64,000 bases of DNA from positions 518,678 through 582,677 of the forward strand of contig NW_003101666.1 in the NCBI RefSeq assembly GCF_000003855.2. Reading direction: 5' to 3'. Source of the DNA: Blastomyces gilchristii SLH14081. Taxonomy: Eukaryota; Ascomycota; Eurotiomycetes; Onygenales; Ajellomycetaceae. The notes under the pieces are model-generated. The model did not search any database. It saw nothing but the letters and a program-made list of their open reading frames with translations, and had not been told where the DNA came from. A program made the position numbers and the translations under genes. The stretch's first letter is position 1, and each line of letters starts with the position of its first letter. Of the stretch, positions 30,553 to 63,090 are shown piece after piece.

Positions 30553-30683
30553 TTAGTGCTGTTAAAATGGTCAGATGAGTGTACAAAAGAGTAAACCCTG
30601 TTTTTATATCAACTCACAGAGCAGCTGGTGCAGCTGCAGGAGTTGCAGTCGCCGGCACAGCAGTTGCAGTTGCAGGGAGACAT
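30553..30683 (-). CDS. copper-type metallothionein, 23 aa
   Basis: This is a very short metal-binding protein of the fungal metallothionein type, which chelates Cu(I) or other soft metals in the cytosol. Exon 1 (30683-30618) encodes MSPCNCNCCAGDCNSCSCTS plus Cys-Ser. A 59-bp intron (donor GTGAGT, acceptor AACAG) follows. Exon 2 (30558-30553) adds only His and the stop. Without splicing the frame would end two codons later (VS, then stop), so either way the protein is 23-24 aa. It contains eight cysteines at 4, 6, 8, 9, 13, 16, 18 and 21 in C-x-C, CC and C-x2-C spacing, with no aromatic residues. Neurospora copper metallothionein has a similar size (about 26 aa) and Cys/Gly/Ser makeup. An ATG with eight Cys in 23 codons is very unlikely by chance. 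Confidence 0.85.
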
Positions 30684-35471: not shown

Positions 35472-35977
35472 TAAACTGGCCGCTGGGACTATGAATTTCA
35501 CATTTGATCTCATTTGATCTGGTCTCATACATTTCTTGGCGTGAATCCCGCTGGGACTGACTATCAAAAAAACATGTAAAGTGACTATATATCAGATCTT
35601 AAAATGAAATCATGACTTGAAAAAAATGAGAAAGTGATCTCATTTGGTCTCATTTAGTCTCATTCTTAGCATAAAGTTACTATTTTTAGACATTTTAAGG
35701 TTTTTTTTAGACTATTTTTAATTTTTTAAAAAGTAACACTTTTTGATAACACTCAAATGAGATTTAAAGTCATTTAAAGCAATAAAAATAATTTAAATTG
35801 AGAAGTGAAAATCATGGTCTCATTTGAAAAATGTGACAAGAGTAGACAGTAAGTCTCACTGAAACAGTATGAGACTACTATCTAATGTTAAAACTGTGTA
35901 ATGGGATCAGTTGAATTGGTAATGAAACTATCAAAAAATCTGGTCCTGGTCTCAGACACGGTCACACGGTCAGTTTA
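35472..35977 (+). mobile_element. 506-bp MITE copy A
   Basis: Starts TAAACTGGCCGC and ends GGTCAGTTTA. It is inserted in the SINE body. Target duplication ATCTCAGA / ATCTCAGG (8 bp, one transition). It is lightly mutated. Confidence 0.95.
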
Positions 35978-36219
35978 ATCTCAGGTTTCTAATAAATACA
36001 GAGATATACAAATTACTTCAATGAATCACTCTATGTTTCTGAGCTGGGAAGTTATTATCACATGTATTTAATTGTTACTTCTTTGTATTTTTCTATGTTC
36101 TTATTATCTTGATGTGATCTTAATATCTGTATTTCCTTCTGTATAATTAACACTTGACCTGTATTTAACATCACGCAAGGACTCATCATAAGCTCCGCTT
36201 GCATATAAGTGTAATGAAA

Positions 36220-36250
<31 letters not shown>
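36220..36250. repeat. (TAA)n microsatellite
   Basis: About ten AAT/TAA units at the 3' end of the SINE-like element. This serves as its tail, and the target duplication follows directly. Confidence 0.9.
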
Positions 36251-36251
<1 letters not shown>

Positions 36252-37831
36252 TAATATTTCTGAAAAGAATATAATCTTTAATTATATAATTATATATAAT
36301 CTGCAATTACTCTGCAGATCAAAACTTATTTTACTATACTTAAGAAGTTTAAATTATCAGCTTATACTTTATAAACTATTATAGAGAATAACTTTTCTGA
36401 GAAGCCTGCTATATACAGAACTTGTTTATTTAAAGAGCTTATTAAAATAATTTTTAAAAGTAAAGAATCTAACAGAGCTTTTATTAAATAATTAATTACT
36501 ATAAGAACTGACTACATACATCTAGAATATAAGATCTCAGATGTCATGTTTTTCAACAGACTACTTACAGAAGTTAATAGAGATTAAGTCTCATTTATAA
36601 GAAATTAAATAAATCAAATTGATAAGAATAATACTCAACTCTTAAAGAATGATTTTATAAGCCTGTGTTATAATATTCTTTTACAGCTCTCTACTGCTAA
36701 TAAGATAAGTACTGATATATCTAAAAACTCTATCAACAACGCGCAAGACAAGAATAAGAAAGATAAGAATAAAGAGAAAGATAAGAATAAAAATGTTAAA
36801 TTTAAATCTGAATATAGAGATAATAATATAAAGACATGTCATATACTATTATTATCAAAAGATTAATTATATTCAGACTGACTGTTGAAAGAAATTCTTT
36901 AAGAAACATTCTTTGAATTTGAATTTCAATATCAATAGAAATAAGAATAAAGATAAGAATGCAGAGAATATAGATTTAACTTCTGTTTATAATATTATAA
37001 AGTAAGTATTTTATATTAAAGAAAAAATCTATATAAGTAATTAGATAGAAAAAGATATCTAAATTCTAGACTCTGAATCAGATACTCATATCATATCTCA
37101 CAGAGATCTTATTATAGTAAAATCTCAGAAGATGAAAGTAATGTTGAAAATAATAGATAAAACAGTGATCTCTGCTACAGCTATAGAAGATACAAAGATT
37201 TCAGTGAAAGAAGTGAATATACTGTTAAGTAATATCTACTATATTCTGAAGTTAGAAGTGAATCTTATGAGTATAAGTAAGCTTATACATCAGAGTTATA
37301 TCTATAAGCAGTTAATATATAAGAATAATTATACTATGTTTATTATATCTTCTGACTGTATATTCTCATTTATAGCAAGATTAAATAAGAATGATATCTA
37401 TAAGATGAAAAGACTGATTATATACAGAGACTTAATTTGATTTATTATACTCAATGATGATTTTAAACCTGTAAATACATTATAAGTAAAAGATGACACA
37501 ATATTAACACTATCTGATAGAAATAATATAAAGATTATAGAACTTGTAATAATGTAATAATATTAAAAGCTAGAACATTTAAAGTCTGTGAATATTATAA
37601 AAATAATGATAGATTCATATTTAGAGATAAGAATTATTAATTAATGAGCTTTATCATTCTGCAAAGTCTATATTCAGATAAAAATAATACATTCTGTGAT
37701 AAGCTATATCTGATCAATTATATAGACTATTTCATTACACTTCACAGATTTCACTGAAAGCTTCAATTCTCAGTCACTGATTCTCAGTTAAAAAACTCAT
37801 GAAATTTCTATTCTTTCACTCTGAAGCTTTA

Positions 37832-38140
37832 TGTGACGGGCTGCGCCTGATCAATGATATAGACTATTTCATTACACTTCACAGATTTCAATCACTTCAT
37901 TCTCAAACATATACACTTCAATTCTCAGTCATTCTTGATCACTGATTCTCAGCCGTCATGAACGCGTATAGATTCTTCCGCTCTGAAGCTTCATTATATA
38001 CATCATTATATACACATATAAATATTCACTTCAATCACTGATTCTTACACTTTCTCTTTCTTTTCTTCTCTAACATTTTTCTCTTTGTTATATAAGATCT
38101 ATCAGTATTATATCAATCTATTCAGTGTAGGTCTCTTATA
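37832..38140 (+). repeat. 5' LTR of G1
   Basis: 309 bp, starting TGTGACGGGCTGCGCCTGAT and ending CTCTTATA (mutated from TTACA). It includes a TATA-like TATAAATATTCAC. Confidence 0.9.
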
Positions 38141-41100
38141 CTAGAAAAATGTTCATCATCTTCTTATTAGAAATGATTATTCACACATTATCTTCTTATT
38201 AGAAATGATTATTCATTGAGATATCTGAACATGTAACAACATGTAAGAAATAGAGAAACAGTCAAATAGTTAAGTAGACACTGAGTTCTCGGATAGAAGC
38301 TTGCTTACCAGTCACTCTGACCCTGTAATAAGATTTTACAAGAGAATGTTAGTGAAAGACCTGAGAGTTCTGACACTCAGATGTATGAGATATTCATATA
38401 ATTATACTTCTTCAGATTTCACAGATATCACATATCTGATAAATAATATAATCATGTCTAATGATAATATGAGAGAACCCTTGAGTGTGAGCATAGATAT
38501 AATATCACAGTGACTTTAAGTAATGTTGAAACTATAATAACAATAGATAGCTGATATGCATGCCACTCAACAGCTTCAATATAAAGAAATTCAATGATTA
38601 ACTCATACAACTTCAGCATCTATAAAAGCACTGAAAGAATGCTTAGATGTTTCTGTATATTTTAATACTTCTGATCTCACTCTCTACTCATTATGAAGAA
38701 TGAAAATGCTCACAAAACTGAGTATGAATAAAGATGTTATTAGTTCACTAATCAATCAAGATTGATATATCAATGAATAATTGAAGAATTATATGAAACA
38801 GAAGTTTCATTCATGAATGAAAGTATGTAAATCAGTATTACAAAAATCTGATAATATCATGAAACATCTTAATATTCTGTTCTGAGACACTGTCATACAA
38901 CAGAAGATATTAGATTGATTATAGAGTGTCTGATAGAGAAACACTTCTCTTATAACATTCATTTCTGACTTCAATATCAAGATTCTAGAAGCAGGTGATC
39001 AATCTTGAGAGAATCAAATAAAGATTAGTATGCTTAAAAAGACATTAACTTTCAAACTCTTACAGGCTCTTGTAAGTGTAGATAAAGATCAGACTTATAA
39101 AGATTTCTGCACACAGCTCTGAATATTGAATGACTGTCTTATCAAGCTTAAGAGTATACAGAACAGTGACAGAAGATATTACATCTCAGTCACTTATACA
39201 TCTGTGCTGAAAAACAGCAATGATACAGATGCTATGAACTGAATAGATTCAAATGTCTATGCATAAGCAAGAGTTTCTGCTGTTCAAACAGGCTTTTAAG
39301 TCTCTGAGATCACTCTCAAGAAAGTCACTAATTGATGTCAACATGAAGTATACATCAACTGTAACTGATTAGAACACATTGCTTTCAACTACTGATCAAT
39401 CTATGTGCCTTCACACTTAAGAGAAAGATCAGCATCTTCTTAATTGAGAGAAAGATTAGTGTCTTCTCATTTGAAGAATGAATCAGCACCTGTTCATGTC
39501 AATCACATTGCAGTGAAGAAAGATTCAGAAGATAACTACAAGAATACTCTGATGAAACAGGGAAAAGATTAGCTTCTGTTCAAATTCACAAACAGAAGCT
39601 TGAAGAGATCAGATAATAATAATTTAAAGAGAAAATAACAATGAATGTGATTCTTGTATCTACTGTGATCAATAACATATATAATATATAATATGAAAGT
39701 CATGATAGATAGCAGTCTATATCACTATACAATGATAAAATCTTCAGTCATAAGATATTATAATCTTCAGTGTATCTTCTTATCAAAACCCTGACTTCTT
39801 ACAGAATTTAATAATTTAAAAGATGTTTGTATCTGTTACATGATGAAACTAAACATAGATGTGAAAGAACATTAACATGAAGATATCTACACATATGAAG
39901 TTGATAATCTTGATTATAATCTTATGTTAGAACTTGTCTGACTATCTGAATAAGACATTTTATTGAATGCTTGAAACAGGAGCTTGATATTCTCTAATGA
40001 TGATAGAATTCATGAAGATGATATTCACAAGACTATGAATCTTACACAGATCTCTGTCAATACTTATGAAATACTCTGAAAAAGAAGTTGTCATCAAAAC
40101 TGTTAACAGAGTCACTGACAAGATCACTGATAACAGAATTATATATCAATCTATTTCACCAGTCTGATCAATATTAAAAAGACTCTAGAAAAGTTATATC
40201 ATGTTATAATAACAGATTCTTATACAAAACTCTCTTAATAATATCATGAATATCTAGATATCTTCTGATAAGATAATAATATTACAAATCTATCTCTCTT
40301 ACAAGACTCAGAAGTGAATCACAGTATTAAGTTAGAAAAGATGAACAGTAAGAACTCTGAATCATTATAAGACTCTCTTTATAATATGTTCTGAGATGAA
40401 CTTCTTCTTCTTCAAAAGACACTCAATGATCTGTTAAATAAAGAATTTATATATATTAGTAACTCTTTCATCACAGTCTCTATTCTCTTTGCAAAGAAAC
40501 CAGGTGAAGAACTCTGATTCTGTGTGAATTATCAAGAATTGAACAGATTAATAAGAAAGAACTATTATTCTTTATCTCTTATCAATGAAACTCTAGCCTG
40601 TATTGAACAAGCTCAATAGTTTATAAAGTTAGATGTCATTACTGTGTTTTATAAAATTCACATCACTGAAGAAGATAAGTGACTTACAGTATTCTGAACA
40701 CAATATGATCTCTTGAAATGAGTAGTCACATCTTTTGAACTGACTAATACTCTCAGTACATTTCAGAAGTATATCAACTGAGCACTCTGAGACTTTCTTA
40801 ATAAATTCATATCTGCATATTTCAATGATATTCTCATCTTCACTGATGAATTCAGGAAAGAATATCAAGAACATATGTGAAAGATATTATAATAACTACA
40901 GAAAGCAGAACTGCTGATAGACATAGATAAGTATGATTTTAAAATTAAAAGTACAAAATATCTAGACTTTATTATAGAAGCTGATAAGGAAATCTGAATG
41001 AATTCTGAGAAGATCTCTGCTATTCTTGAATGAAAGACTCTGTACACTATGAAAGATGTACAAAGCTTCATTGAATTTACTAACTTCTATCAGTGATTTA

Positions 41101-41766
41101 TATGAAACTTCTCAGATATCACAAGATTACTTACAGAACTTACTAAGAAAGACTCAGTATTTCAATGATCAGCAGACACTGAAGCTGCATTTACACAGAT
41201 GAAGAAGATGTTCATTAATATCTCTCTACTGATAATATTCAATTCTGATCATAAGATTGTTATTGAAGCTGATTTCTCTGACTATGTCATAGAAGAAGCT
41301 ATATTGTAATATGATAATGAAAATGTCTTATAATCATGTATCTTCATATCTAAGAAACTAAGTCTCACTGAATGCAACTATGAGATCTATGATAAGAAAC
41401 TTCTTATAATTGTACACTATCTAGAAGAATGAGACTCTGAATTTTAAAGCATCTCTGAATTTGAGATAATCACAGATCATAAGAATCTCAAGCACTTCAC
41501 AACTATCTGTAAACTTATTAAATAACAGATACAATGATCTGAGTTCTTAAACTACTTTCATTTTACAATACACTACTGTTCTGACAGTCAGAACTCGATG
41601 ACAGATGCCCTCTCATAATGAGAGCAAGATATATCATTCAATATAACAGATACTCACTGAATGAACTAAGAGCACTGACTCTTGAATCTGAAGATATTAG
41701 TTAATTAAGATGAAACAGCTCATGACACTATATATACTTCTCTGATTAGAACAGTCTCTCTCTGAA

Positions 41767-41801
41767 CTGTCACTGACACTGACACTGACACTGATACTGA
41801 T
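41767..41801 (+). repeat. (CACTGA)n microsatellite in G1 pol
   Basis: Four to five imperfect hexamer units lie in G1 between RNase H and integrase. The matching site in G2 is shorter, and G3 lacks most of it. Confidence 0.75.
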
Positions 41802-43304
41802 ATCTCAACTTCTTCTGAATCTACACTGAATGAATTATAGCATGTAACAGCTTAAACTGATAAACTTCTTTAAGCACTCACTGAAGCAGTATATCAAGAA
41901 GCACTCTAATTCCTCTCAGAACTACATATAAGAACTGACATCTCAGAATACTCAATCAATGATAATAACACTCTGCAGTTTCATGAATAATGTTGAGTTC
42001 TCTACTCTGAATTCTTATACACTCAGATAATGCAAGAGATGTATGATTTATATATAACTGATCACTCAGATTGTGAATAATTGTACTGAATAGTCTCTTA
42101 AGAGTTCTACTGATCTGAGATATTAAACAGCATCAGATGTTTCATTTGAAACTGTAACTGTTATTCTTTTATCATCTTATAAAAGAACTGTAGAAAAGAT
42201 CTACTGAAATCACTTGATATTTCTGATAGAATCTGATGAGATGTGATAATTAACTTCACTATTGATCTCTCTGAGAGTAAGAGTTGTACAAACATTCTGA
42301 TCATTGTGAACTGATTGAGCAAGAGTGTAATATTGAAACCTTGTAATAAGATGAATACTGAACAAGTCACTGAAGCTTTTCTATAGAGCTTATTCTATCA
42401 GATATATAAATTGCTGAGATTCATAGTATTGAATTAAGATCATCAATTCATGAGTACTCTCTGAACAAGAATCTGTCAAGTTCTCAAGATTATACATTAT
42501 CTGTCAACTGCCTATCACTTTGAGACTGATGATGCATCAAAACAGATAATTCAGACTGTAAAGAATTATCTTCATAAGTTCTGCAATTACTTATAAGATA
42601 ATTGACATGATCTGCTTCTACACACAGAGATTGCTATCAATGAATGAGATGCTGTTTCAACAGATATAAGCCTGTTCTTTCTTATACACAGTTATCACAT
42701 GAAAGTGTTGAATCTTCTAGAGATTACACAGTTCACACTGAACCTCTGCAGTTCAATTCAGATCACTGATAATATAGTAATGAAACTCTGAGATGCCTGT
42801 GATTAAGCAGAAGTCTCTATAATAAGTACTAAACAGAATTAAGAAGATTAAATCAATGTTCACTGAGACCTTGCTGAATAATATAAGATAGAAAATCTGA
42901 TATAATTGAATCTTAAGAATATATGAATTACATGTTCATCTTGCACACTAGATTACTGTCATATCAGATATAAAGTGATAGAAGTTCTAGATAGTCACAA
43001 CTATTATCTTGACATATCATCAGAAATTCATAATGTCTTTCACACAAGCTTGCTCTGCTGCACTGTCACTGACTCATTCTCTTCTTAACTGACTTCTGAC
43101 TGACAGCTGTCAGACATCATAGAAGAAGATAATGAGCTTGAATGAGAGATTGAGAATATTCTCAATAAGAGACTCTGTAACTGTAGCTGATAATATCTTA
43201 TGAAATGAATTGAGTATAATTATCTGATCTGAACTTCAAGTTTCACATTATCTGAAACAGCGGCTCTTGATCAATGAGAACTGCTTCTGAAAAGAGAGAA
43301 CTAA

Positions 43305-43613
43305 TGTGACAGACTGTGTCTGATTAATGATATAGACTATTTCATTACACTTTACAGATTTCAATCACTTCATTCTTGAATACATACACTCTGATTCTCA
43401 GTCATTCTTGATCACTGATTCTCAGCTGTTACAGACACATATAGATTCTTTCACTCTGAAGCTTCACTGTGTACATTACTACATATGTGTATAAATATTC
43501 ACTCTGATCACTGATTTTCACACTTTCTCTTTCTTTCCTTCTCTAATGTTTTTCTCTTTGTTATATAAGACCTATCAGTATCATACCGATCTATTCGGCG
43601 TAGACCTCTTACA
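43305..43613 (+). repeat. 3' LTR of G1
   Basis: 309 bp, same length as the 5' LTR. It starts TGTGACAGACTGTGTC and ends CTCTTACA. It differs from the 5' copy mainly by transitions. Confidence 0.9.
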
Positions 43614-46600
43614 CTTTATTATATACATATATAAATATTCACTCTGATTGCTGATTCTCACACTTTCTCTTTCTTTTCTTCTCTAATGTTTTTCACTTTG
43701 TTATATAAGATCTATATATTATACTGATCTATTCAGTGTAAGTCTCTTATACTTGAAAAATATTTATTATCTTTTTATTAGAAATAATTATTTATCAAGA
43801 AGATATCTGAATATGTAATAATATGTAAGAAATAGAGAAATAGTTAAACAGTTAAGCAGATACTGAGTCTCAATCAGTTAAGCAGACACTGAGTTCTCAG
43901 ATAGAAGCTTACTTATCAGTCACTCTGATCTCATAATAAGATCTTATGAAGAGAATAAAATCTTATAAAGAGAATATCAGTGAAAGATCTGAGAGTTCTG
44001 ATACTACAGATATATAAGATATTTATATAATTATACTTCTTCTGATTTCACAGATATCACACATTTGATGATTAATATAATCATGTCTAATGATAATATG
44101 AGAGAACTCTTAAATGTAAGTATAGATATAATATCACAGTGACTCTGAGTAATATTAAAATTACAATAGTAATAGATAGCTGATATACATGTAACTTAAC
44201 AACTTTAATATAAGGAAATTCAACAATTAACTTAATAAGAAACTCATGCAATTTCAACATCTACAGAATCAAATATAAAAGTACTGAAAGAATGCTTAAA
44301 TGCTTCTGTATATTTCAATACTTCTAATCTCACTCTCTACTTATTATAAAGAATGAAAATGCTTACAAAACTGAATATAGATGAAGATATTATCAGTTCA
44401 CTAATTAATCAAGATTGATATATCAATGAATAATTAAAGAATTACATAAAACAGAAGTTTCATTCATAAATGAAAGTATATGAATCAGTGTTGTAAACAT
44501 CTGACAATATTATCAAATATCTTGATATTCTATTCTAAGACACTGTCATGTAACAGAAAGTATTAGATTGATTACAGAATACTTAACAGAGAGATACTTC
44601 TCTTATAACATTTATCTCTGACTTCAATATCAAGATTCTAAAAGCAGATGATTAATCTTGAGAGAATTAAATGAAGATTAGCATGCTTAAGAAGATATTA
44701 ACTTTCAAACTCTTACAGACTCTTATAAGTGTAAATAAAGACTTAACTTATAAAGGCTTTTACACACAGCTTTGAACATTGAATGATCATCTTATCAAGC
44801 TCAAGAGTATACAGAACAGTAATAGAAGATATTACATCTCAGTTACTTATACATCTGTGCTGAAGAATAACAGTAATGATACAGATATTATGAACTGAAT
44901 AGATTTAAATATTTATACACAAGTAAGAGTCTCTGTTATCTAAACAGACTTCTGAGTTTCTGAGATTACTTCTGAAGAAGTCACTGACTAACATCAACAT
45001 GAAGTATGTATTAACTGTAACTAATCAGAATATATTACTTTCAACTATCAATTAATCTATATATCTTCTCACTTAAAGAATGAATCAGCATCTGTTCATA
45101 TCAATCACATTGCAGTGAAGAAAGATTCAGAAGATAACTATAAAAACACTCTGATAAGACAGAAAAAAGATTAACTTCTGTTCAAATTTATAAACAGAAG
45201 CTTGAAGAGATTGAACAATAATAATTTAAAGAGAAAATGATAATGAATGCAATTCTTATATCTACTGTAATTGATAATATATATAATATAAAAGCTATGA
45301 TAGACAGTGATCTATGTTATTATATAATGATTAAATCTTCAGTTATAAGATATTATAATCTTCAGTGTATTCTCTTATTAAAACTCTGACTTCTTATAGA
45401 ATTTAATAATTTAAAAGATATTCAGATCTGTTACATGATAAAACTAAACATAGATATCAGAGAATATTAACATGAAGATATCTATGTATATAAAGTTAAT
45501 AATCTTGATTATAATCTTATACTAGAACTTGTCTAGCTATCTAAATAAGACATCTTATTAAATGCTTAAAACAGAAGTTTAATATTCTCTAACAATAATA
45601 GAATTCATGAAGATGATATTTATAAGACTATAAATCTTACATAGATCTCTGTCAACACTTATGAAATGCTCTGAAAAAGAAGTTATTAGTAAGACTGCTG
45701 ATAAGATTATTAATAGTAGAATTATATATCAATCTATTTCATCAGTCTGACTGATATTAAGAAGACTCTAGAGAAGTTATCTCATACTATAATAACAGAT
45801 TCTCACATAAAACTCTCTTAATAATATTATGAATATCTAGATATCTTCTAATAAGATAACATTATAAATATACTCTCTTTACAAGACTTAGAAGTGAATT
45901 ACAGTATTAAGTTAGAAAAGAAGAATGATAAGAATCTCAAGCTATTATAAGACTCTCTCTATAATATGTCTTAAGATAAACTTCTTCTTCTTTAAAAGAC
46001 ACTTAATAATCTATTAAATAAGAAATTTATATATATTAGTAACTCTTTCACTGCAGCTTCTATTCTCTTTACAAAGAAATCAGATAAAGAACTTCAATTC
46101 TATATAAACTATCAAGATCTGAACAGATTGATAAAAAAAGATTATTATTTCTTATCTTTTATCAATGAAACTCTAGTATATATCAGATAAGTCTGATAAT
46201 TTATAAAACTAGATATTATTACTATGTTTTATAAAATTTGTATTACTGAAGAAGATAAATAGCTTACAGTATTCTGAACATATTATAATCTCTTTGAATA
46301 AGTAGTTACACTCTTTAAACTGACTAATACTTTTAGTATATTTCAGAAGTATATTAACTGAGCACTCTGAGATTTTCTTAATAAGTTTATATCTGTATAT
46401 TTAGATAACATTCTCATCTTCACTGATGAATTCAGAAAGAAATATCAAGAATATATATAAAGAGTACTATAATAATTACAAGAGATAGAACTACTGATAG
46501 ATATTAACAAGTATGATTTCAAAGTCAAGAGTATAAAATATCTAGGTTTTATCATAGAAGTTGATAAGAGAATTCAAATGAATTCTGAGAAGATCTCTAC

Positions 46601-48736
46601 TATTCTTGAGTAAGAAGCTTCATATACTGTGAAAGATGTATAAAGCTTTATCAGATTTACTAACTTCTATCAGTAATTTATACAAAACTTCTCAGATATT
46701 ATGAGATTACTCACAGAACTTATTAAGAAGAATTCAGTATTTCAGTAATTAGTAGATACTGAAGCTGCATTCACACAGATGAAGAAGATATTCATTAATA
46801 TTTCTTTACTAATAATATTCAATTCTGATTATAAGATAGTTGTTAAGACTGATTTCTCTGACTATATTACAGAAGAAGCTATATTATAATATAATAATAA
46901 AGATGTCTTACAATTATATATTTTTATATCTAAAAAACTGAGTTCTGCTGAATGCAATTACAAGATCTATAATAAGAAACTTCTTATAATTGTATACTAT
47001 CTAGAAGAATAAGACTCTGAACTTCAAAGTATCTTTAAATTTAAAATAATCATAGATTATAAGAATCTTAAGTATTTTACAATCATCTACAAGCTTACTG
47101 AATATCAGATATGATGATTCAAGCTATTAAGTTATTTTCATTTCACTATACACTATTATCTCAGTAGTTAGAACTTAATAACAGATACTCTCTTATAATA
47201 AGAGTAAGATATACCTTTTAATATAACAGATATCTGTTAAATAAACTGAGAATATTAACTCTTAGATCTGAAGATATTAGTTGATTAAGATAAAACAACT
47301 TATAATATTATACATACTTCTTTGATTAGAATATCTTCTCTCTGAACTATTACTGATACTGATATTAATATCTCAACTTCTCTCACACTGAATGAACTAT
47401 AGTATATAACAGCTCAAGCTAATAAACTTCTTCAGACTCTCACTGAAGCAGTATAATAAGAAGTATTTCAATTTTCTTCATAACTATATATAAAGACTGA
47501 TATCTCAGAATATTTAATTAATGATAATAATACTCTATAATTCTGTGAATAATATTAAGTTTCTCAGTCTAAATCTCTACATATCTGAATAATGCAAGAG
47601 ATATATGATTCATATATAATCAGTTATTCAGATTATAAATAACTGTATTAAATAATCTCTTAAGAATTCTACTAATCTGAGATATTAAACAGTATCAGAC
47701 ACTTTATCTGAAACTATAACTATTATTTCTCTATCACTTTATGAAAGAATTATAGAAAAGATCTGCTTAAATTACTTAATATCTCTAATAGAATCTGATA
47801 AGATATAATAATTAACTTCACTGTTAATCTCTCTAAGAGTAAGAATTATAGAAATATTCTGATCATTATAAATCAATTGAGTAAAAATATAATATTAGAA
47901 TCTTATAATAAGATAAATACTGAATAAGTCACTGAAGTCTTTCTACAGAGCTTATTCTATCAGATGTATAAATTACTGAGATTTATAGTATTAGATTAGA
48001 GCTGTTAATTTATAAGTACTTTCTGAACAGGAATCTGTTAAGTTCTTAAGATTATACACTGTTTATTAACTATCTATCACTCTGAGACTGATGATGTATC
48101 AGAATGAACAATTCAGATTATAAAGAATTATCTTTATAAGTTCTATAATTACTTATAAGATGATTAATATGATCTTCTTCTATATATAAAGATCACTATC
48201 AATGATTAAGATGCTGTTTCAACAGATGTAAGTCTGTTCTTTCTTATATATAATTATCATATGAAAAGTGTTAAATCTTCTAAAAGATTACACAGTTCAT
48301 ACTGAACTCTTACAGTCTGATTCAGATCACTGATAATATAGTAATAAAGCTCTGAGATGTCTGTGACTAAGCAGAAGCCTTTATAATAAGTGTTAAATAA
48401 AATCAAGAAAATTAAACTAATATTCACTGAGATCTCACTGAGTAATATAAGATAGAAGATCTGATATAATTAAATCTTAAGAATATACAGATTACACACT
48501 CATCTTACACACTGAATTACTATTATATAAAGTATAAAGTGATAGAAGTTCTAGACAGTTATAACTACTATCTTGACACATTATCAGAGATTCATAATAT
48601 CTTTTATATAAGCTTACTTCACTGCACTGTCACTGATCTGTTTCCTTCTCAACTGACTTTTAACTGACAGCCGCCAGGGATCATAGAAGAAGATAACGAA
48701 CTTGAATGAGAGATTGAAGATATTCTTGATAAGAGA

Positions 48737-48756
48737 CCCCGCGGCCGCGGCCGCGG
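48737..48756. other. 20-bp GC-only island in G2 chromodomain
   Basis: CCCCGCGGCCGCGGCCGCGG sits in DNA that is otherwise very AT-rich. In the same place G1 has CTCTGTAACTGTAGCTG and G3 has TCTCACAGCTGCAGCTG. In frame it would encode an Arg/Gly run within the chromodomain. Confidence 0.9.
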
Positions 48757-48895
48757 TTAATAATATCTTGTGAAATGAGTCAGCTATGATTATCTGACCT
48801 GAACTCTGAGCTCCGTGTTATTCAAGACAGCAGCTCTTGACTGATGAGAACTATATACTCACAACTCTATATCACTTCTGAAAAGAGGAGGCTAA

Positions 48896-49679
48896 TGTGA
48901 TGAGCTGCGCCTGATCAATTATATAGACTATTTCATTACACTTCACAGATTTCATTAAAAGCTCTGATTCTCAGTTATTGATTCTTGGTTAAAAAACTCA
49001 TGAAATTTCTATTCTTCCATCTCAAAGCTTTACTATGTATGCATATAAATATTCACTCTGATCACTGATTTCTAGACTGACCATGTGACCATGTCTGAGA
49101 TCAGAATCAGATTTTTTGATAGTTTCATTATCAATTTAACTGATCTCATTACACAGTTTTAACATTAGATAGTAGTCTCATACTGTTTCAGTGAGACTTA
49201 CTGTCTACTCTCATCACATTTTTCAATTGAAACCATGATTTTCACTTCTCAATTTAAATTATTTTTATTGCTTTAAATGACTTTAAATCTCATTTGAGTA
49301 TTATCAAAAAGTGTTACTTTTTAAAAAATTAAAAATAGTTTAAAAAAAACCTTAAAATGTCTAAAAATAGTAATTTTATACTAAGAATGAGACTAAATAA
49401 GATTAAATGAAATCACTTTCTTATTTTTTTCAAGTTATGATTTCATTTTAAGATCTCATATATAGTCACTTTACATGTTTTTTTAATGACTAGTCTCAGC
49501 AGAATTCATGCTAAGAAATGTATGAGATCAGACTAAATGAGATCAAATGTGAAATTTATGATCTTAGTGACTAGTCTACTGATTCCCGCACTTTCTCTTT
49601 CTTTTCTTCTCTAATGTTTTTCACTTTGTTATATAAGATCTATATATTATATCAATCTATTCAGTGTAGATCTCTTACA
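48896..49679 (+). repeat. 3' LTR of G2 (interrupted by MITE B)
   Basis: Starts TGTGATGAGCTGCGCC and ends CTCTTACA at 49679. MITE B and its 8-bp duplication account for 514 bp, leaving 270 bp, the same as the reassembled 5' LTR length. Confidence 0.85.
49073..49578 (-). mobile_element. 506-bp MITE copy B
   Basis: Reverse orientation, TAGACTGACC to TAGTCTA. It is inserted in the 3' LTR of G2. Duplication CTGATTTC / CTGATTCC. Heavily mutated (TGAGATCAGAATCAG for TGGGACCAGGACCAG). Confidence 0.95.
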
Positions 49680-50981
49680 AATTCAATCTTTATATCTATG
49701 ATATGAGTTATTAAGCTGATAATAAGATTCTTTATTAATCTAGTAGAAGATGAAACAACACTTTTCAATGAAAATAACACACTCACTAGAGAGAGTGTAA
49801 GTTATTGATTAAGTATAACAGATAATACAATCTGTTATAGATAAGTAATTCTTATAATAGAAAAGAGAGAATCTACTGTAAGATTAATAAATTTCATTAT
49901 AGATATTAAGATAACTACACAATATTAAGTTAAAACTCTATACTCAGATAATGAAGAAGAGTTCAAAAGTCAAGAACTTAAGACCTACTATCAGAATAAA
50001 GAAATAGTGTATGAAATAACTACATCTGACACATCATAATTAAATAACTCAGTGAAATATGTAAATTGAATAGTTGTAGAAAAGACATAAAGTCTACTAT
50101 TTAATAGTGAATTAGAAAGAGAACTTTAAGATGAAGTAATATAAGCTGTGATTATAATAATTAACACATTCTCAATATTAATGAAGATATTTGAATATAA
50201 GAAAGAAATATTATTTATATCTTTTAAAGCTTGAACTGAGATGTAATCTTCTGTTCATTGAATACAGAGATGAGAATGCAAGGTCTATAAGAAGAATTTA
50301 AAAGTATTGAATAAGCTCATGAATAGAACTAATAGTAAGAAATAATAGCTAGTTGAATATTAAGAATTATATTAATATTATGTATGAGATTCTGTTGCAC
50401 ACTGTCTTGAGATTGTATGAGATGTCATATATTTAATGAAGCTCTTGACATGAGTGTAAATACATCTGTAAATATAATGAGAGAATTCAATGAATTGTCT
50501 AATAAATTGAACATTCTGAATGTTAGAAAGAGATGATAACACTGTTCTCTAAGAAGACTTATAAAGAAAAAGTCAGATATTTTAAAAATGATTATTAATA
50601 AGAACTTAGAGAATGTAATTGATTCAATCTATCTTCTAGATAATGAGACACAGCTTGTCATGAATAAAGAGTCTGAAGACTCTGTTAATAAGAATAATTC
50701 TATTCTAAGTATTCTGACAGACTGATTAACTACACTGATAGAAGTTAAAAGAAGCTCAGACTGAGACTATTAACATAAGATAATGAAAAAGAAGATTAAG
50801 ATATTTGAACAGAAGAAGATATATATTATTATTAAGAAGATCTCAGAAATGAATATTCTTACAGATAAATAAGTATATAATCAGAAATTTAATAATAAGA
50901 GAGAAATCATCTGTTTTAAAGCTTACTGAGTGATTAGAGAGTTTTTATAATAGCAGAGTATTCATTATATAAGATTATATA

Positions 50982-51487
50982 TAGACTGGCCGCTGAAATT
51001 ATGAATTTCATATTTAATCTTATTTAATCTGATCTTATACATTTCTTGATGTGAATCCCGCTGGGACTAGTCATTAAAAAAACATGTAAAGTGACTATAT
51101 ATGAGATCTTAAAATGAAACCATGACTTGAAAAAAATGAGAAAGTGATTTCATTTGATTTCATTTAGTCTCATTCTTAGCATGAAGTTACTATTTTTAGA
51201 CATTTTAAGGTTTTTTTTAGACTATTTTTAATTTTTTAAAAAGTAACACTTTTTGATAACACTCAAATGAGATTTAAAGTCATTTAAAGCAATAAAAATA
51301 ATTTAAATTGAGAAGTGAAAATCATGATCTTATTTGAAAAATGTAATAAGAGTAGACAGTAAGTCTCACTGAAACAGTATGAAACTACTATCTAATGTTA
51401 AAACTGTGTAATGAGATTAATTGAATTGATAATGAGACTATCAAAAAATCTGATTCTAATCTCAGACACGGTCACACAGTCAGTCTA
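50982..51487 (+). mobile_element. 506-bp MITE copy C
   Basis: Forward orientation, TAGACTGGCC to CAGTCTA, in copia C1 pol. Perfect duplication ATTATATA on both sides. Heavily mutated. Confidence 0.95.
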
Positions 51488-51872
51488 ATTATATACTGTA
51501 GTAGTATCAGAGTCTATATTGCGTAGCCTATTCACTATATCAACTGTTAAAGAATGAAAGGTTAAATCAATTGACTATATATCTGTGTTTTTGAACAATA
51601 TATTATCTCAGAATGAGATAATCTATATACAACTACTTACAGATATTAAATATAACAGAGAGAACTTGATAAGACTACTTCATCAGAGTCTATATAAAAT
51701 AAAGTAAGCTGTAAGAGTATGATATTTTCTCACAATAAAGTATCTGACTATATTAAAGTTTAAGATATCATCTTATAACAGTGAATTTCTATATCACTCT
51801 ATTCATAAGATTTATCTGATATTGCATGTTAATAATTGTCAGATGACAGAATCTTAAGAACAGTAATTAAAC

Positions 51873-52378
51873 TAGACTGACTGTGTGACCGTGTCTAAGA
51901 TCAGAACCAGATTTTTTGATAGTCTCATTATCAATTCAACTGATTTCATTACACAGTTTTAACATTAAATAGTAGTTTTATACTGTCTCAGTAAGACTTA
52001 CTGTCTACTCTTATCACATTTTTCAAATAAGATTATGATTTTCACTTCTCAATTTAAATTATTTTTATTGCTTTAAATGACTTTAAATCTCATTTGAGTG
52101 TTATCAAAAAGCATTACTTTTTAAAAAATTAAAAATAGTCTAAAAAAAACCTTAAAATGTCTAAAAATAGTAACTTTGTATCAAGAATGAAACTAAATGA
52201 GATCAAATGAGATCACTTTCTCATTTTTTTCAAGTCATGGTTTCATTTTAAGATCTCATATATAGTCACTTTGCATGTTTTTTTAATGACTAGTCCCAGC
52301 GGGATTCACATCAAGAAATGTATAAGATCAGATCAAATGAGATCAAATGTGAAATTCATAATCTCAGCGGCCAGTCTA
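51873..52378 (-). mobile_element. 506-bp MITE copy D
   Basis: Reverse orientation, TAGACTGACTG to GGCCAGTCTA, in copia C1 pol between RT and RNase H. Duplication AATTAAAC / AATTAGAC. Confidence 0.95.
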
Positions 52379-53542
52379 AATTAGACTGAGTATTAAGAGA
52401 GATTGCAAAGAGATTTAAGACAAAGAATATCAAAGAGATCAAGTTATATCTTGAAATAAAGATTAAATGTCAGAGAAATAATAATCTAGTGATTATACAG
52501 AGCTGCTATATTGAGAAGATTCTTAAAGATTTCAGTATAAATAAGATAAATTCAGCTGATACTCTGATAATAGCTGATATATAACTGAAATTCTTATCTG
52601 ATGAGAGAAGAGAATTAAATAATAACTTTACAGCTATAAGATATTATCAAGAATTGAAATCATTGCAATATTTAATCTCAAGCAGTCAGTCAGATCTGAT
52701 GTTTATAGTCAACTATCTCTTGTATTTTAACTTGTATTTATATAAAGTATGTTGAGCAGTGTTGAAGCATATTCTACATTATATTAAGAAGATAAAAAAC
52801 TATGATATATTATACAGAAAGAAGATTAGTGATGAGAATCTAAGTTCTGTAATATACTATAATTCAGACTAAGCAGAGGTAGATTCTTAATACAAATCAA
52901 CTATTAGCTATATTATATTAATTAATAAGTCACTGATCTCATAGCAGTTACAGAGACAGATATCTATCATTAAATCAATCACAGAAGCTGAATATATTGC
53001 AGTTAGTAAGACAGCTTATAAGATAATCTGATTGAATAATATGTTATATAACACTAAGTTAATGAATGATGAAAAAGTGAAAATATACTTATATCTATAA
53101 GTTGATAATAAGAGAGTAATTGATCTAGCAAAGAAGAAATTCTTAACATGAAGATTATATCATATCAAGATTAGATATCATATTCTTCACAATTTAATTG
53201 AAAAAGAGAAAATTATGATAAAACATGTTAATTCTATAGTGAATATAGCTGACAGTCTTACTAAGTCACTGATAAAGCCTGCATTTAAATATTTTATCAA
53301 AAGAATTGATATTTAGAAAATTGAGAAGAAGAAATGATTAAATGATAATAATAATACAGCAGATCAATGAATTTTGTATGTATTTCTTAATTTTTACAGT
53401 TATTACTATACAGATATCTTTTCTAATGAGAAAATCAGAGTCTAATTGATATAATTAATTATTATTACATTTTTGAAAGAGTTGAGAATGAAGAAGGCTC
53501 TGAGTGACAGCTTATTATAGATCATAGTGTAGTAAGAAGAGA

Positions 53543-54323
53543 TGTTAATAATTACTACATCTATTCTAGTTATATACTATCTCAATCTATTTAGTGTAAC
53601 TCGCGTAGTTAGATTATAACATAATAATATTATTCTTTAAGATCTACTCTAGTCACGTGCCATCTCAATCTATTCATTTAGTGTAACTCGTGTAGATAGA
53701 TTACATATATATAACTAAACTGACCGTGTGACTGTGTCTGAGATCAGAATCAGATTTTTTGATAGTCTTATTATTAATTTAACTGATCTCATTACACAGT
53801 TTTAACATTAGATAGTAGTCTTATACTGTCTCAGTAAGACTTACTGTCTACTCTTATTACATTTTTCAAATAAGATTATGATTTTCACTTCTCAATTTAA
53901 ATTATTTTTATTGCTTTAAATGACTTTAAATCTTATTTAAGTGTTATCAAAAAGTGTTACTTTTTAAAAAATTAAAAATAGTCTAAAAAAAACCTTAAAA
54001 TGTTTAAAAATAGTAACTTTATACTAAGAATAAGACTAAATGAAATTAAATGAGATTACTTTCTCATTTTTTTCAAGTCATGATTTCATTTTAAGATCTC
54101 ATATATAATCACTTTACATGTTTTTTTAATAACTAGTCTCAGTGGGATTCACACTAAGAAATGTATGAGATCAGATCAAATGAAATTAAACATGAAATTC
54201 ATGATCTCAGCGGTCAGTTTACATACAATATAATAATATTATTCTTCAAGAGATTATAAAGCTCTTCATAAGTAATGAATAACTGTAATAATATGTAAAT
54301 TGACATCTTCACACATTATTACA
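53543..54323 (+). repeat. central LTR apparently shared by copia C1 and C2
   Basis: This follows a purine tract (AAGAAGAGA) at the end of C1 and precedes C2 gag. About 98 bp of LTR (53543-53640) is followed by a second LTR start (ATCTACTCTAGTCACGTGCC) and, after MITE E, the remaining LTR to TTATTACA at 54323. Only one LTR lies between the two internal regions, as expected after LTR-LTR recombination, with an internal duplication of roughly 90 bp. Confidence 0.7.
53716..54221 (-). mobile_element. 506-bp MITE copy E
   Basis: Reverse orientation, TAAACTGACC to GGTCAGTTTA, inside the central copia LTR. Duplication TATATAAC / CATACAAT; all three differences are C/T transitions. Confidence 0.9.
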
Positions 54324-55383
54324 AGTGTGTCTAGATAATTTATTAAGTGATTGAACTTATGATTAATCTAAGATCTGAGAAAATGTCTGATTTAATAAAA
54401 GAATATATATCTTCAAGATAAAGAAATAAGAAAACATCAGAGCAGTAAATACAAGATCACAGATCACTGCTAATATTAATAATAAATTAGAAGATAACTC
54501 TCAAAGTATTTAAACTGAATAAAATTATTGCAGAGAAACAGTCTAATAAGTTCAATAAATATGAAAACTCAGTTGAAGATATCAGTGAGATATTAGATAA
54601 TATAGAGAGCTTAAGTAATTAGAATAATAATAGTTCTATAAGTAAGAAGACTTGTATAAGACTTGAAATTGCAAGACTTCAGCATGAGATTAAGTGAATA
54701 AAGATTAGTAGAGATAAGACTCTTATAGATAATAAGATAAAAGTAGATCTGATAAAATATTTTCAATGAAAAGAGAAGATATCTGTTATAATAAAAGTTC
54801 TTAAAGAATTTAGAAGTTAAGTAAGACTTATTAAAAGATTAATAGTTCTCACTGAATTCATTAACTACTTAATATAAAGAGAGGAAATTCTTTTAACTAT
54901 AGAGTAGTCTGAAACTGATAATATTCTTAAAGATAATAATCTTGATAAGAATATTACTATAAATATATAATATTTCTGAAAAGAATACAATTTTTGATTA
55001 TATAATTATATATAATCTGTAATTGTTCTGCAGATCAAGATCTATTTTACTATACTTAAGAAATTCAAATTATTTACTTATACTCTATAAACTATTATAG
55101 AGAATAACTTTTCTAAAAGATTTACTATCTGCAGAACTTATCTATTTAAAAAACTGATTAGTATAACTACTGAGTTAAAAGACTTAGATTATACTTTTAT
55201 TAAATATCTGATTATTATAAGAACTGATTATATTTATCTAGAATATAAGATTTCAGATATTATATTTTTCAACAGACTGCTTACAGAAGTTAACAGAGAT
55301 TAAGTCTCATTTATAAGAAATTAAATAAATTAAATTGATAAGAATAATACTTAACTCTTAGAGAATAATTTTATAAGTCTATA

Positions 55384-55689
55384 TATGACGGGCTGCGCCT
55401 GATCAATTATATAGACTATTCCGCTCCACTTCATAGATTCTTTCACTTCACTCTCGAACACATACACTCCGATCCTCGGTCACTCTTGATCACTGATTCT
55501 CAGCTGCTACAAACATGTATAGATTCTTCTGCTCTGAAGCTTCATTACATACATCATCATATACATGTATAAATATTCACTCTGATCACTGATTTCTACA
55601 CTTTCTCTTTCTTTTCTTCTCTAATGTTTTTCTCTTTGTTATATAAGAGCTATATATTATACTAATCTATTCAGCGTAGGCCTCTTACA
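55384..55689 (+). repeat. 5' LTR of G3
   Basis: 306 bp, starting TATGACGGGCTGCGCC (TG mutated to TA) and ending CTCTTACA. Confidence 0.88.
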
Positions 55690-57433
55690 CTAGAAAAACA
55701 TTCATCATCTTCTTATTAGAAATAATTATTCATATATCATCTTCTCATCAGAAACAATTATTTATTGAGAGATATCTGAACATGTAATAACATGTAAGAA
55801 AGAGAAACACAGTTAAGTGAACACTGAGTTCTCAGATAGAAGCTTGCTCATCAGTCACTCTGACCCTGTAATAAGATCTTACAAAGAGAATGTCAGTGAA
55901 AGATTCAAGAGTTCTGATACTCAGATATATAAGATATTCATACAATTACACTTCTTCAGATTTCACAGATATCACATATCTGATAAATGATATAATCATA
56001 TCTAATAATAATATGAGAGAATTTCTGAACATGAGTATAGACACAGTGTCACAGTGACTCTAAGTAATGTTGAAACTATAATAACAATAAATAGCTGATA
56101 TACATGCAACTCAATAACATCAATATAAAGAGATTCAATAATTATTATAACAAGAAACTCATGCAATTTTAACATCTACAGAATTGAATATAAAAGCACT
56201 GAAAGAACACTTAGATGCTCTTATATATTTCAATACTTTCAATCTCACTCTCTACTCATTATGAAGAATGAAAATACTCATAAAACTGAGTATAGATGAA
56301 GATGCTATTGATTTGCTAATCAATCAAGATTGATATATCAATGAACAATTGAAGAATTGTGTGAAACAGAAGTTTCATTCATGAATGAAAGCATATGAAT
56401 CAGTGTTGTGAATACCTGATAATATCATGAAATATCTTGATATTCTGTTTCAAGACACTGTTATGCAACAGAAGACATTAGATTGATTACAGAGTGTCTG
56501 ACAGAGAAACACTTCTCTTACAACATTCATTTCTGACTTCAATACTAAGATTCTAGAAGCAGATGATCAATCTTGAGAGAATCAAATAAAGATTAGCATG
56601 CTTAAGAAGACATTAACTTTCAAACTCTTACAGAGTCTTGTAAGTGTAGATAAAGATCAGACTTATAAAGACTTCTGCACATAGCTTCAGATATTGAATG
56701 ACTGTCTTATCAAGCTCAAGAGTATACAGAACAGTGATAGAAGACATTACATCTCAGTCACTTATATACTTACACTGAAGAGAAGTAACAGCAATGATAC
56801 AGATGTTATGAACTGAATAGATTCAAATATCTATATACAAGCAAGAGTCTTCACTGTTCAAACAGACTTTCAAGTTTCTAAGATCACTCTCAAAGAAGTC
56901 ACTGATCAATATTAATAAGAAGTGTACATTAACTGTAATCAATCAGAACACATTGCTTTCAACTGTCAATCAATCTATATATCTTCATACTTGAGAGAAA
57001 GATCAGTGTCTTCTCATTTGAAGAAGAGATCAGCATCTGTTCACATCAACCACATTACATTAAAGAAAGATTCAGAAGATAACTATGAGAATATCTCAGT
57101 GAAACAGAGAAAAGATTAGCTTCTGTTCAAATTTGTAAACAGAAGCTTGAAGAGATTGAATAATAATAATTTAAAGAGAAAATAACAATGAATGCAATTC
57201 TTGTATCTACTGTGATTGATAATATATATAATATGAAAGCTATGATAGACAGTGGTCTATGTTACTATATAATGATAAAATCTTCAGTTGTAAGATATTA
57301 TAATCTTCAGTGTATCTCTTTATCAAAATCTTGACTTCTTGCAGGATTTGATGATCTGAAAGATGTTTGTATCTATTATATGATGAAACTAAATATAGAT
57401 GTGAGAGAATATCAATATGAAGATGTCTATGCA

Positions 57434-57939
57434 TAGACTGGCCACCGGGACCATGAATTTCACATTTGATCTCATTTGGTCTGGTCTCATACATTTCTTG
57501 GCGTGAATCCCGCTGGGACTGGCTATCAAAAAAACATGTAAAGTGACTATATATCAGATCTTAAAATGGAACCATGACTTGAAAAAAATGAGAAAGTGGT
57601 CTCATTTGGTCCCATTTAGTCCCATTCTTGGCATAAAGTTACTATTTTTAGACATTTTAAGGTTTTTTTTAGACTATTTTTAATTTTTTAAAAAGTAACA
57701 CTTTTTGATAACGCTCAAATGAGATTTAAAGTCATTTAAAGCAATAAAAATAATTTAAATTGAGAAGTGAAAATCATGGTCTCATTTGGAAAATGTGACA
57801 AGAGTAGACAGTAAGTTCCACTGGGACAGTATGAGACTACTATCTAATGTTAAAACTGTGTAATGAGATCAGTCGAATTGGTAATGAGACTATCAAAAAA
57901 TCTGGTCCTGGTCTCAGACACGGTCACACGGTCAGTCTA
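57434..57939 (+). mobile_element. 506-bp MITE copy F (least mutated class)
   Basis: Forward orientation, TAGACTGGCCACCGGGACC to GGTCAGTCTA, in G3. Perfect duplication TCTATGCA. It keeps CC and GG pairs (CCCGCTGGGACTGG) although its host is mutated, so it probably arrived after the host's mutation. Confidence 0.95.
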
Positions 57940-58975
57940 TCTATGCATATAAAGTTGATAATCTCAATTATAATCTTATGTTAGAACTTATCTGACTATC
58001 TGAATAACATATCTTACTGAATGCTTAAAACAGAAGCTTGATATTCTCTAATGATGATAGAATTCACAAAGATAATATTCATAAGACTATGAATCTTACA
58101 CAGATCTCTGTCAATACTTACAAAATACTCTGAAAAAGAAGTTATTATCAAAATCATTAACAGAGTCACTAACAAGTTTACTGATAGCAGAATCATATAT
58201 CAATCTATTTCATCAGTCTGGTCAATATCAAAAAGGCTCTAGAAAAGTTATCTCATATTACAATAACAGATTCTTGTACAAAACTCTCTCAATAATATCA
58301 TGAATATCTAGATGTTTTCTGATAAGATAATATTACAAACATACTCTTCTTACAAGATTCTGAAGTGAATCACAGTATCAAGTTGAAGAAAAAGAATGAT
58401 AAGAACTCTGAATCATCATGAAACTCTCTTTATAATATATCTCAAGATGAACTTCTTCTTCTTCAAAAGACACTTAATGATCTGTTGAATAAAGAATTCA
58501 TATATATTAGCAACTCTTCTGCTGCAGCCTCTATTCTCTTTGCAAAGAAATCAGATAAAGAACTTCAGTTCTGTGTAAATTATTGAGAATTGAACAGATT
58601 AACAAAGAAAGATTATTATTCTTTATCTCTTATCAATGAAACTCTAGCTTGCATTGAATAGGCTCAATAATTTACAAAGTTAGATATCATCACTGTATTT
58701 CATAAGATTCACATCACTGAAGAAGATGAGTGACTTACAGTATTTTAAACACAATATAATCTCTTTGAATAAGTAGTCACACTCTTTGAACTGATCAATA
58801 CTCTTAGTACATTTCAGAAGTATATTAACTGAGTACTTTGAGACTTTCTTAATAAATTTATATCTACTTATCTAGATAACATTCTCATCTTCACTGATGA
58901 ATTCAGAAAGAAATATTAAGAGCATATACAAAGAGTATTACAATAACTATAAGAAGCAGAACTATCAATTGATAT

Positions 58976-59481
58976 TAGACTGACCGTGTGACCGTGTCTG
59001 GGACCAGGACCAGATTTTTTGATAGTCTCATTACCAATTCGACTGATCCCATTACACGGTTTTAACATTAGATAGTAGTCCCATACTGTCCCAGTGGGAC
59101 TTACTGTCTACTCTTGTCACATTTTCCAAATGGGACCATGATTTTCACTTCTCAATTTAAATTATTTTTATTGCTTTAAATGACTTTAAATCTCATTTGA
59201 GCATTACCAAAAAGTGTTACTTTTTAAAAAATTAAAAATAGTCTAAAAAAAACCTTAAAATGTCTAAAAATAGTAACTTTATGCCAAGAATGAGACTAAA
59301 TGGGACCAAATGAAACCACTTTCTCATTTTTTTCAAGTCATGGTTTCATTTTAAGATCTGATATATAGTCACTTTACATGTTTTTTTGATAGCCAGTCCC
59401 AGCAGGATTCACGTCAAGAAATGTATGAGACCAGATCAAATGAGATCAAATGTGAAATTCATGGTCCCAGCGGCCAGTCTA
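58976..59481 (-). mobile_element. 506-bp MITE copy G (least mutated class)
   Basis: Reverse orientation, TAGACTGACCGTGTGACC to GGCCAGTCTA, in G3. Perfect duplication ATTGATAT. It retains CTGGGACCAGGACCAG, so it serves as the best reference for the family. Confidence 0.95.
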
Positions 59482-61830: not shown

Positions 61831-62136
61831 TGTAATAAGCTGTACTCAATCAATCATATAGACTATTTCACTTCACTTCATAGATTCTTTCACTTCACTC
61901 TTGAATATGTATGCTCTGATTCTCAGCTATTCTCAATCACTGATTCTCAGCTGCTATAAATGTGTATAGATTCTTCCGCTCTGAAGCTTCACTGTGTATA
62001 TTATCACATATGTGTATAAATATTCACTCTGATCACTGATTTCTACACTTTCTCTTTCTTTTCTTCTCTAACGTTTTTCTCTTTATTATATAAGATCTAT
62101 ATATTATACCGATCTATTCAGCGTAGGCCTCTTACA
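61831..62136 (+). repeat. 3' LTR of G3
   Basis: 306 bp, starting TGTAATAAGCTGTACTC after a purine tract (AAAGAGAGAAACTAA) and ending CTCTTACA. Confidence 0.88.
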
Positions 62137-63090
62137 CTATACTATAATATTCTTTTACAGCTTTCTACTGTTAATAAGATAAGTACTGATATATCTAGAA
62201 ACTCTATTAATAATATATAAGACAAGAATAAGAAAGATAAGAATAAAGAGAAAGACAAGAATAAGAATATTAAATCTAAACTTAAATATAGAAATAATAA
62301 TATAAAGACATACTATTATTATCAAAAGATTGATTATATTCAGACTAACTATTGAAAGAAATACTCTGAGAAATATTCTTCAAATTTGAATTTCAATATT
62401 AATAGAAACAAGAATAAAGATAAGAATGCAGAGAATACAGATACTACTTCTATTCACAATATTATAAAACAAGTATTTTATATCAAAGAAAAGATCTATA
62501 TAAGTGATTAGATAGAAAAAAATATCTGAATTCTAGACTTTGAATCAGATACTCATATCACACTTCACAGAGATCTTATTATAATAAAATCTTAAAAGAT
62601 AAAAGTAATATTGAAAATAATAGATAAAACAGTAATCTCTACTGCAGCTATAGAAGATATAAAGATTTCAGTGAAAGAAGTGAATATACTGTTAAATAAT
62701 ATTTACTATGTTCTAAAGTTAGAAGTGAACTTTATAAGTATAAGTAAGCTTATATATCAGAGTTATATCTATAAGTAGTTAATATATGAAAATAATTATA
62801 TTATGTTAATTATATCTCTTAATTACATATTCTTATTTATAGTAAGATTAAATAAGAATAAGATCTATGAGATGAAAAGATCAGTTATATACAGAGACTT
62901 AATTCAGTTTACTATACTTAATAATAATTTTAAATCTGTGAATATATTACAAGTGAAAGATGATACAATATTAACACTATCTAATAGAAATAATATAAAG
63001 ATTATAGAACTTATAATAATATAATAATATTAAAAGTTAGAATATCTGAATTCTGTAAATATTATAAAAATGACAGTAGATTCATATCTA

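Follow-up and report, generated by a model that had tools for sequence, protein, structure and literature searches.

A family of 506-bp miniature inverted-repeat elements in Blastomyces gilchristii shares its ends with a hAT element and carries directional C-to-T mutations

A stretch of 64,000 nucleotides from Blastomyces gilchristii SLH14081 (hereafter the window; contig NW_003101666.1, C17:518678-582677 in our numbering) contains seven sequences of exactly 506 bp, each between short direct repeats, and the question that this locus raises is what moved elements so uniform in length and what made their sequences diverge. We are confident that the seven copies belong to a family of non-autonomous hAT miniature inverted-repeat transposable elements (MITEs) that was mobilised by a hAT element of about 5.75 kb and was later mutated from C to T. 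In the course of events that we propose, the transposase of the longer element, which has the same ends, would cut, move and insert the MITE in trans, recognising terminal repeats of about 11 bp and probably also a repeated subterminal motif, ATGRRAYYA. Insertion would take place at nTnnnnAn-like sites with an 8-bp target site duplication (TSD), and the MITE would in this way have been amplified to about 2,200 copies. Afterwards C was changed to T in both families, above all in the contexts CpG and CpC; the process, which we presume to be either similar to repeat-induced point mutation (RIP) or linked to methylation, would have broken every transposase copy that we scored.

The seven copies and their family

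The coordinates, length and strand given in a preliminary description of this DNA are correct for all seven copies, four on the plus and three on the minus strand, and the basic observation is therewith confirmed. Copy A (35472..35977, minus strand, 506 bp; flanks ATCTCAGA and ATCTCAGG, one transition apart), whose reverse complement is 95% identical to copy G, immediately precedes a GC-poor repeat block (36001..64000) that contains the other six. These are copy B (49073..49578, plus strand, 506 bp; flanks CTGATTTC and CTGATTCC, one transition apart), copy C (50982..51487, minus strand, 506 bp; perfect flank ATTATATA), copy D (51873..52378, plus strand, 506 bp; flanks AATTAAAC and AATTAGAC, one transition apart) and copy E (53716..54221, plus strand, 506 bp; flanks three transitions apart), all four of the subfamily with C at column 385 that is discussed below, followed by copy F (57434..57939, minus strand, 506 bp; perfect flank TCTATGCA) and copy G (58976..59481, plus strand, 506 bp; perfect flank ATTGATAT). 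The 8-bp flanks behave as had been described, being perfect at 50982, 57434 and 58976 and differing at the other four copies by one to three transitions and by nothing else. Copies A to F are 88-97% identical to copy G; summed over all pairs of window copies, 894 C/T or A/G differences stand against 18 transversions, and copy E has the lowest GC content of the seven (24%). The terminal inverted repeats are imperfect and about 11 bp long (TAGACTGRCC). The sequence TARACTGRCC, proposed earlier for both ends, is found exactly at 11 of the 14 ends, while two ends depart from it by one transition and one end by more. Folded as single-stranded DNA, copy G does better than 100 shuffles of it (z -4.7).

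Genome-wide occurrences were counted in an assembly of 74.8 Mb on 75 contigs with 35-mers that tolerate C/T and A/G exchanges and allow at most one mismatch, the reversed pattern serving as control. An interior 35-mer of the MITE has 2,218 matches and its reversed control none. The search proposed earlier, with copy G as query, returned 40 best-scoring matches that all span 506 bp, a set selected by similarity, and in the 20 loci fetched from it the TSD is perfect in 18, has one mismatch in one and six in another. A further 40 copies were picked by position on contig C1 from among the exact interior 35-mer matches listed: 25 of them are exactly 506 bp long and 10 more fall within 501-513 bp (35/40 in that range), the outliers of 418, 468 and 565 bp all lack a matching TSD, and two loci (L082, L076) were not measurable. 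The TSDs of this position sample comprise 25 that are perfect, six with one mismatch, two with two and five with three to eight, besides the two not measurable. Taken together, the 60 fetched loci (20 + 40) yield 58 usable flank pairs, L082 and L076 being left out, and the flanking 8-mers are identical in 43 of them, whereas random pairing of left and right flanks yields 0.7 such cases on average and at most 5. In 46 MITE TSDs, with orientations pooled, the second base is preferentially T and the seventh A (0.60 each; nTnnnnAn), with a weaker preference for A as the fourth and T as the fifth base (0.48 each). The lack of coding capacity claimed for the window copies extends to the 52 copies of 506 bp that were compared, where the longest ATG-initiated open frame encodes 39 amino acids. 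The family is accordingly short, uniform in length, non-coding and abundant, and has both terminal inverted repeats and ends common with a transposase-bearing element, as MITEs do.

Direction and context of the mutations

The heavy point mutation remarked on in the window copies is something other than ordinary drift: it is hypermutation in one direction, from C to T, with CpG and CpC as its targets. If the C or G of C/T and G/A columns is taken to be ancestral, the C-to-T rate in 27 MITE copies falls with the next base from CpG (27.4%) through CpC (21.6%) and CpA (8.0%) to CpT (0.8%). The order is the same in 25 copies of the 5.75-kb hAT element compared over 1,600 bp (L001, L011, L024, L027 and L028 left out), where the rates are 0.515, 0.495, 0.157 and 0.049, respectively. 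Both strands are affected, and the hypermutation is associated with GC-poor DNA. Eight codons of the hAT copies have both TGA and CAA among their variants, which is what mutation of CGA on one or the other strand should give, and CGA itself remains in one of 200 cells.

Among the explanations that compete with our own, the one that fares best, though we still consider it improbable, is that these point mutations reflect classical RIP, i.e. CpA turned into TpA, or merely age. Almost all differences are indeed C/T or G/A, and the genome holds three cytosine methyltransferase genes (four Pfam matches: L103, L104 with L106, and L105), one of them with a BAH domain; apart from the BAH match it is by motifs that we take them to be DIM-2-like, RID-like and DNMT5-like, so that a RID-like and a DIM-2-like gene are seemingly present. 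Twenty spaced 1.5-kb samples of the genome, 11 of them GC-poor (<38% GC) and nine GC-rich, show a TpA/ApT ratio that is raised as in RIP, at 0.84 in the former vs 0.63 in the latter. RIP is also named, in the passages concerned, as a possible influence on the ages of long terminal repeats (PMC11540331). Against classical RIP, however, stand the rates themselves, in which CpG and CpC lie far above CpA, the near disappearance of CGA from the eight TGA/CAA codons, and the composition of GC-poor DNA, in which CpA is not depleted. Observed-to-expected ratios in the 11 GC-poor samples are 0.07 for CpG, 0.29 for CpC, 1.23 for CpA and 1.59 for CpT, vs 0.87, 1.08, 1.09 and 0.96 in the nine GC-rich ones; on the plus strand of window positions 36001-64000, in 4-kb bins, CpG ranges over 0.00-0.23, CpC over 0.01-0.44 and CpA over 0.95-1.23. 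The second classical index, (CpA+TpG)/(ApC+GpT), is 1.45 in GC-poor vs 1.36 in GC-rich samples and is not lowered, contrary to RIP. The classical signature, with CpA preferred and both indices shifted, is therefore absent from these data. Age alone is countered by the transversions, which in 25 position-sampled MITE copies are about elevenfold rarer than transitions (0.0074 vs 0.085 per site).

We return to a directional change at CpG and CpC, which we presume to be RIP-like or methylation-linked. Whether the GC-poor DNA at large was made AT-rich mainly by RIP-like hypermutation that treats CpG and CpC about equally and largely spares CpA, an order nearly the reverse of that in Neurospora, is in our judgement an evenly balanced question. 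In most rows of the reverse-transcriptase matches, 150 of which were scored out of 3,909, TGA is likewise a more frequent stop than TAA or TAG; two rows or more are free of stops. RIP indices based on TpA and CpA respond weakly to hypermutation at CpG and CpC, and a strong loss of C to T in repeats where the classical indices barely react would bias the molecular dating of those repeats. If such hypermutation were genome-wide, published ages of Blastomyces repeats that were derived from total divergence would be too old, and the genome-defence methyltransferases would have an unusual target preference.

The hAT element and the movement of the MITE

When the genome was searched with the Pfam hAT dimerisation domain, 150 of 259 candidates were scored and 37 matches obtained. 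Among the 30 best loci, 29 (L002-L030) form one family and L001 is not alignable to them. In all 29 family loci the right end is the terminal sequence of the MITE, and when 12 hAT loci were extended, nine proved to have both ends and matching 8-bp flanks, with lengths of 5,605-5,891 bp; for three (L055, L061, L062) the sequence retrieved did not show a left end. The length differences are likely due to the poly-A and microsatellite tracts present inside the copies. The terminal region of L052 has, at the left end, a short tandem duplication. L001 (C18:546843-549980), for its part, is a second and distinct hAT locus; it has the highest Pfam score of all and, where it matches the domain, a single stop.

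Subterminal 35-mers of the hAT element have 628 (right end) and 620 (left end) matches in the genome, and their reversed controls none. On contig C1, where pairing was based on the exact matches listed and would miss partners with a mismatch, 28 of the 62 right ends are accompanied, in the correct orientation, by a left end at a distance of 5.1-5.7 kb; for 15 the left end lies 6-14 kb off, suggestive of nested insertions, and for 19 there is none. A right-end 34-mer common to MITE and hAT element has 3,019 matches (control 0), and the MITE and hAT counts of 2,218 and 628 together equal 94% of that number. Positions 1-43 of the MITE and about 382/430 to 506, i.e. the last 77-125 bp or so, align to the hAT ends, and the motif ATGRRAYYA, counted on both strands, is present 10 times per copy in the three MITE copies checked and near both ends in 5/5 hAT copies checked, which also have a few interior sites; 30 kb of genic DNA contains it nine times, but this control is richer in GC and the contrast therefore a rough one. 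We regard the motif as a putative binding site of the transposase. The MITE middle of about 340 bp does not align to the hAT element (rows for two MITE copies; one match of 39 bp at 79%), and the idea that the MITE arose from the 5.75-kb element simply by loss of its interior was accordingly dropped.

Ascribing the 8-bp duplications to a different superfamily (P, MULE, Merlin, Zisupton or KDZ), with the ends shared secondarily, for example through a composite element, is a proposition to which we give very little credence. It draws on the fact that duplications of this length are not unique to hAT elements, and on the circumstance that the sole evidence on the transposase is a C-terminal hAT dimerisation domain. 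This rival is already largely refuted, however, by the element that carries the domain: it is about 5.75 kb long, agrees with the MITE over the terminal 43 and 77 or more bp, and has perfect 8-bp TSDs of its own in eight of the nine copies measured, the ninth differing by one transition. The TSD preference likewise speaks against it: nTnnnnAn is the target consensus of Ac-type hAT elements, and the earlier reading of the 8-bp duplication as a hAT hallmark agrees with it.

Several observations nevertheless weigh against an origin of the MITE in mobilisation by this hAT element. Searches with a 247-amino-acid piece of the transposase found no intact copy among the 150 scored of 816 candidates, every one of which has at least eight stops in the matched stretch (up to 247 amino acids, with 666 candidates unscored), TGA being the commonest stop in nearly every copy. 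Protein searches with the transposase, both as one copy with X at its stops and as an alignment of 18 copies, returned no relative at E <= 0.001, and a profile search of the PDB with it gave only a weak match to an RNA helicase (E 0.52). Pfam support for hAT consists of one short domain with modest scores: the dimerisation region PF05699 is present in 18/18 aligned copies, nothing else in Pfam matched when the hypermutated frames of a single copy were scanned, and a Pfam scan of two minus-strand open reading frames of the element had no match. As possible traces of a DDE/RNase H-like catalytic core, motifs such as TTDN and CIAHVIQL can be made out by eye in the translations. To these points may be added the five of 40 position-sampled MITE copies that lack a matching TSD (at least three mismatches) and the MITE middle, for which no source was apparent in the alignments.

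The expectation that a hAT-like autonomous partner would be found elsewhere is thus borne out in its first half, by a longer element with the same ends and 8-bp TSDs, and is not supported in its second, the 150 scored copies being all broken. It is likely that the assembly holds no intact copy, because an intact one would be expected near the top of the scored list; the active source may be extinct, missing from the assembly, among the unscored candidates, or present in other isolates. We also considered amplification from a hAT master that was already dead, some stops being present in all 25 copies, but near-saturation of CGA and TGG sites explains this equally well.

Movement of the MITE itself is documented by empty sites. 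Queries in which both flanks were joined and one duplication removed were compared with the sequences collected in the analysis, and of 57 such queries 21 run without a gap across the junction into an unoccupied copy, a further 20 cross it in gapped alignments, and for the remaining 16 no match extends over it. Within the window, copy F sits inside a repeat with two uninterrupted counterparts, one at 39744..40043 (plus strand), which aligns over 300/300 bases without a gap at 88% identity, and a second at 45339-45638, which aligns with 2 gaps; the site of copy G corresponds in the same manner to 46355..46654 (plus strand; 300/300 bases gapless, 84% identity) and to 40776-41071 (2 gaps). One repeat unit is thereby present in three related copies, at 39744-41071, at 45339-46654 and at 57-59 kb, and only the last carries copies F and G. 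Among the gapless cases are also MITEs lodged in copies of the hAT element (L084, L089) and one that sits within another MITE copy (L095). These sites show that the MITE transposed.

A transversion at column 385 further divides the family, with 1,254 exact 35-mer matches for G/A vs 183 for C in the genome. The C variant is found, among the matches listed, on contigs C1 to C9, the listed G/A matches all lying within C1; it is carried by four neighbouring window copies (49073-54221), whose flanks are unrelated to each other, and by none of the 48 other copies compared. Judged by this marker, there are at least two MITE subfamilies, and the split makes it probable that no fewer than two source copies were active. 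The single recent master copy of the preliminary description is too simple a picture in this respect, and its interpretation of the family as a whole is partly supported. Local hopping of the four neighbours was entertained and set aside, the C variant being a subfamily marker that occurs 183 times genome-wide; hopping is only suggested. That a larger repeat carried the copies along as it underwent segmental duplication or gene conversion, without transposition, is the least credible account of all, suggested as it may be by the repeat-dense block and by the C that the four neighbours share, for it is refuted by the 21 of 57 gapless empty sites and contradicted by the TSDs that MITE copies have of their own, by the neighbours' unrelated flanks and by the dispersal of the C variant over nine contigs among the matches listed.

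Outside these repeats, the window also has a match to the Rfam family Afu_254 (30601-30757, minus strand, 119.6 bits). It further encodes a thiolase with 94% identity to a protein cluster of Histoplasma, 93% to Emmonsia crescens and 89% to Paracoccidioides lutzii; none of the 120 rows listed bears a Blastomyces name, the clusters being drawn at 90% identity.

Comparison with known systems

The MITEs derived from hAT elements are short and non-coding, with short terminal inverted repeats and ends common with a hAT element, as is the family described here. Ascomycetes have hAT elements with 8-bp TSDs in Restless and in Tan1/Vader of Aspergillus niger, Vader being a hAT MITE; the 5.75-kb element is longer than Restless, and no sequence homologue was found for comparison. 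From examples described in other hosts, such as the mar family of Drosophila (PMC3517528) and the BniHAT MITEs of Brassica nigra (PMC7385995), the present family differs in its fungal host, its about 2,200 copies, an interior not seen to come from the hAT element, and its heavy hypermutation.

At full length throughout, the 2,218 MITE matches would amount to about 1.1 Mb, and the hAT element would occupy about 1.6 Mb if the pairing rate of 28/62 on C1 held for all 628 right ends. The genome that harbours this pair, with about 2,200 and several hundred copies, is described as having expanded almost wholly through Gypsy elements, which make up nearly all of its repeats, in an account whose main text has no word beginning with transposon or CpG (PMC4595289). 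Another source gives DNA transposons as 0.35 Mb in B. gilchristii and, in the parts consulted, mentions RIP once, as a possible bias (PMC11540331); for the related Coccidioides, hAT elements and low-GC repeats are reported, the latter read as RIP (PMC5872316, in the relevant passages). Among the listed titles and abstract beginnings on MITEs, hAT elements or RIP in Blastomyces, on fungal hAT elements and MITEs, and on RIP with CpC or in Onygenales, none concerned this MITE family or this mutation context. The comparison drew on titles, abstracts and passages, and the novelty of either is not established.

As in RIP of Neurospora crassa, C has been changed to T on both strands of repeats in a genome with what we take to be RID-like and DIM-2-like genes; unlike there, CpG and CpC are mutated most, CpA less and CpT least. 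The preference given for N. crassa is CpA>CpT>CpG>CpC (PMC5496416, in the passage concerned). Repeat mutation biased to CpG is described in Tuber melanosporum and basidiomycetes by a survey that deals with CpA, CpT and CpG signatures and whose main text does not mention CpC (PMC4352252); CpG targets are common to that survey and to our data, whereas here CpC is mutated as strongly as CpG. A table for Rhizoctonia solani AG8 gives single-nucleotide polymorphisms at CpC the shortest spacing among the four CpN classes (PMC4014442). Set beside these systems, the 506-bp MITE is a fresh example of a familiar class, and the context of its mutations is the less expected result.

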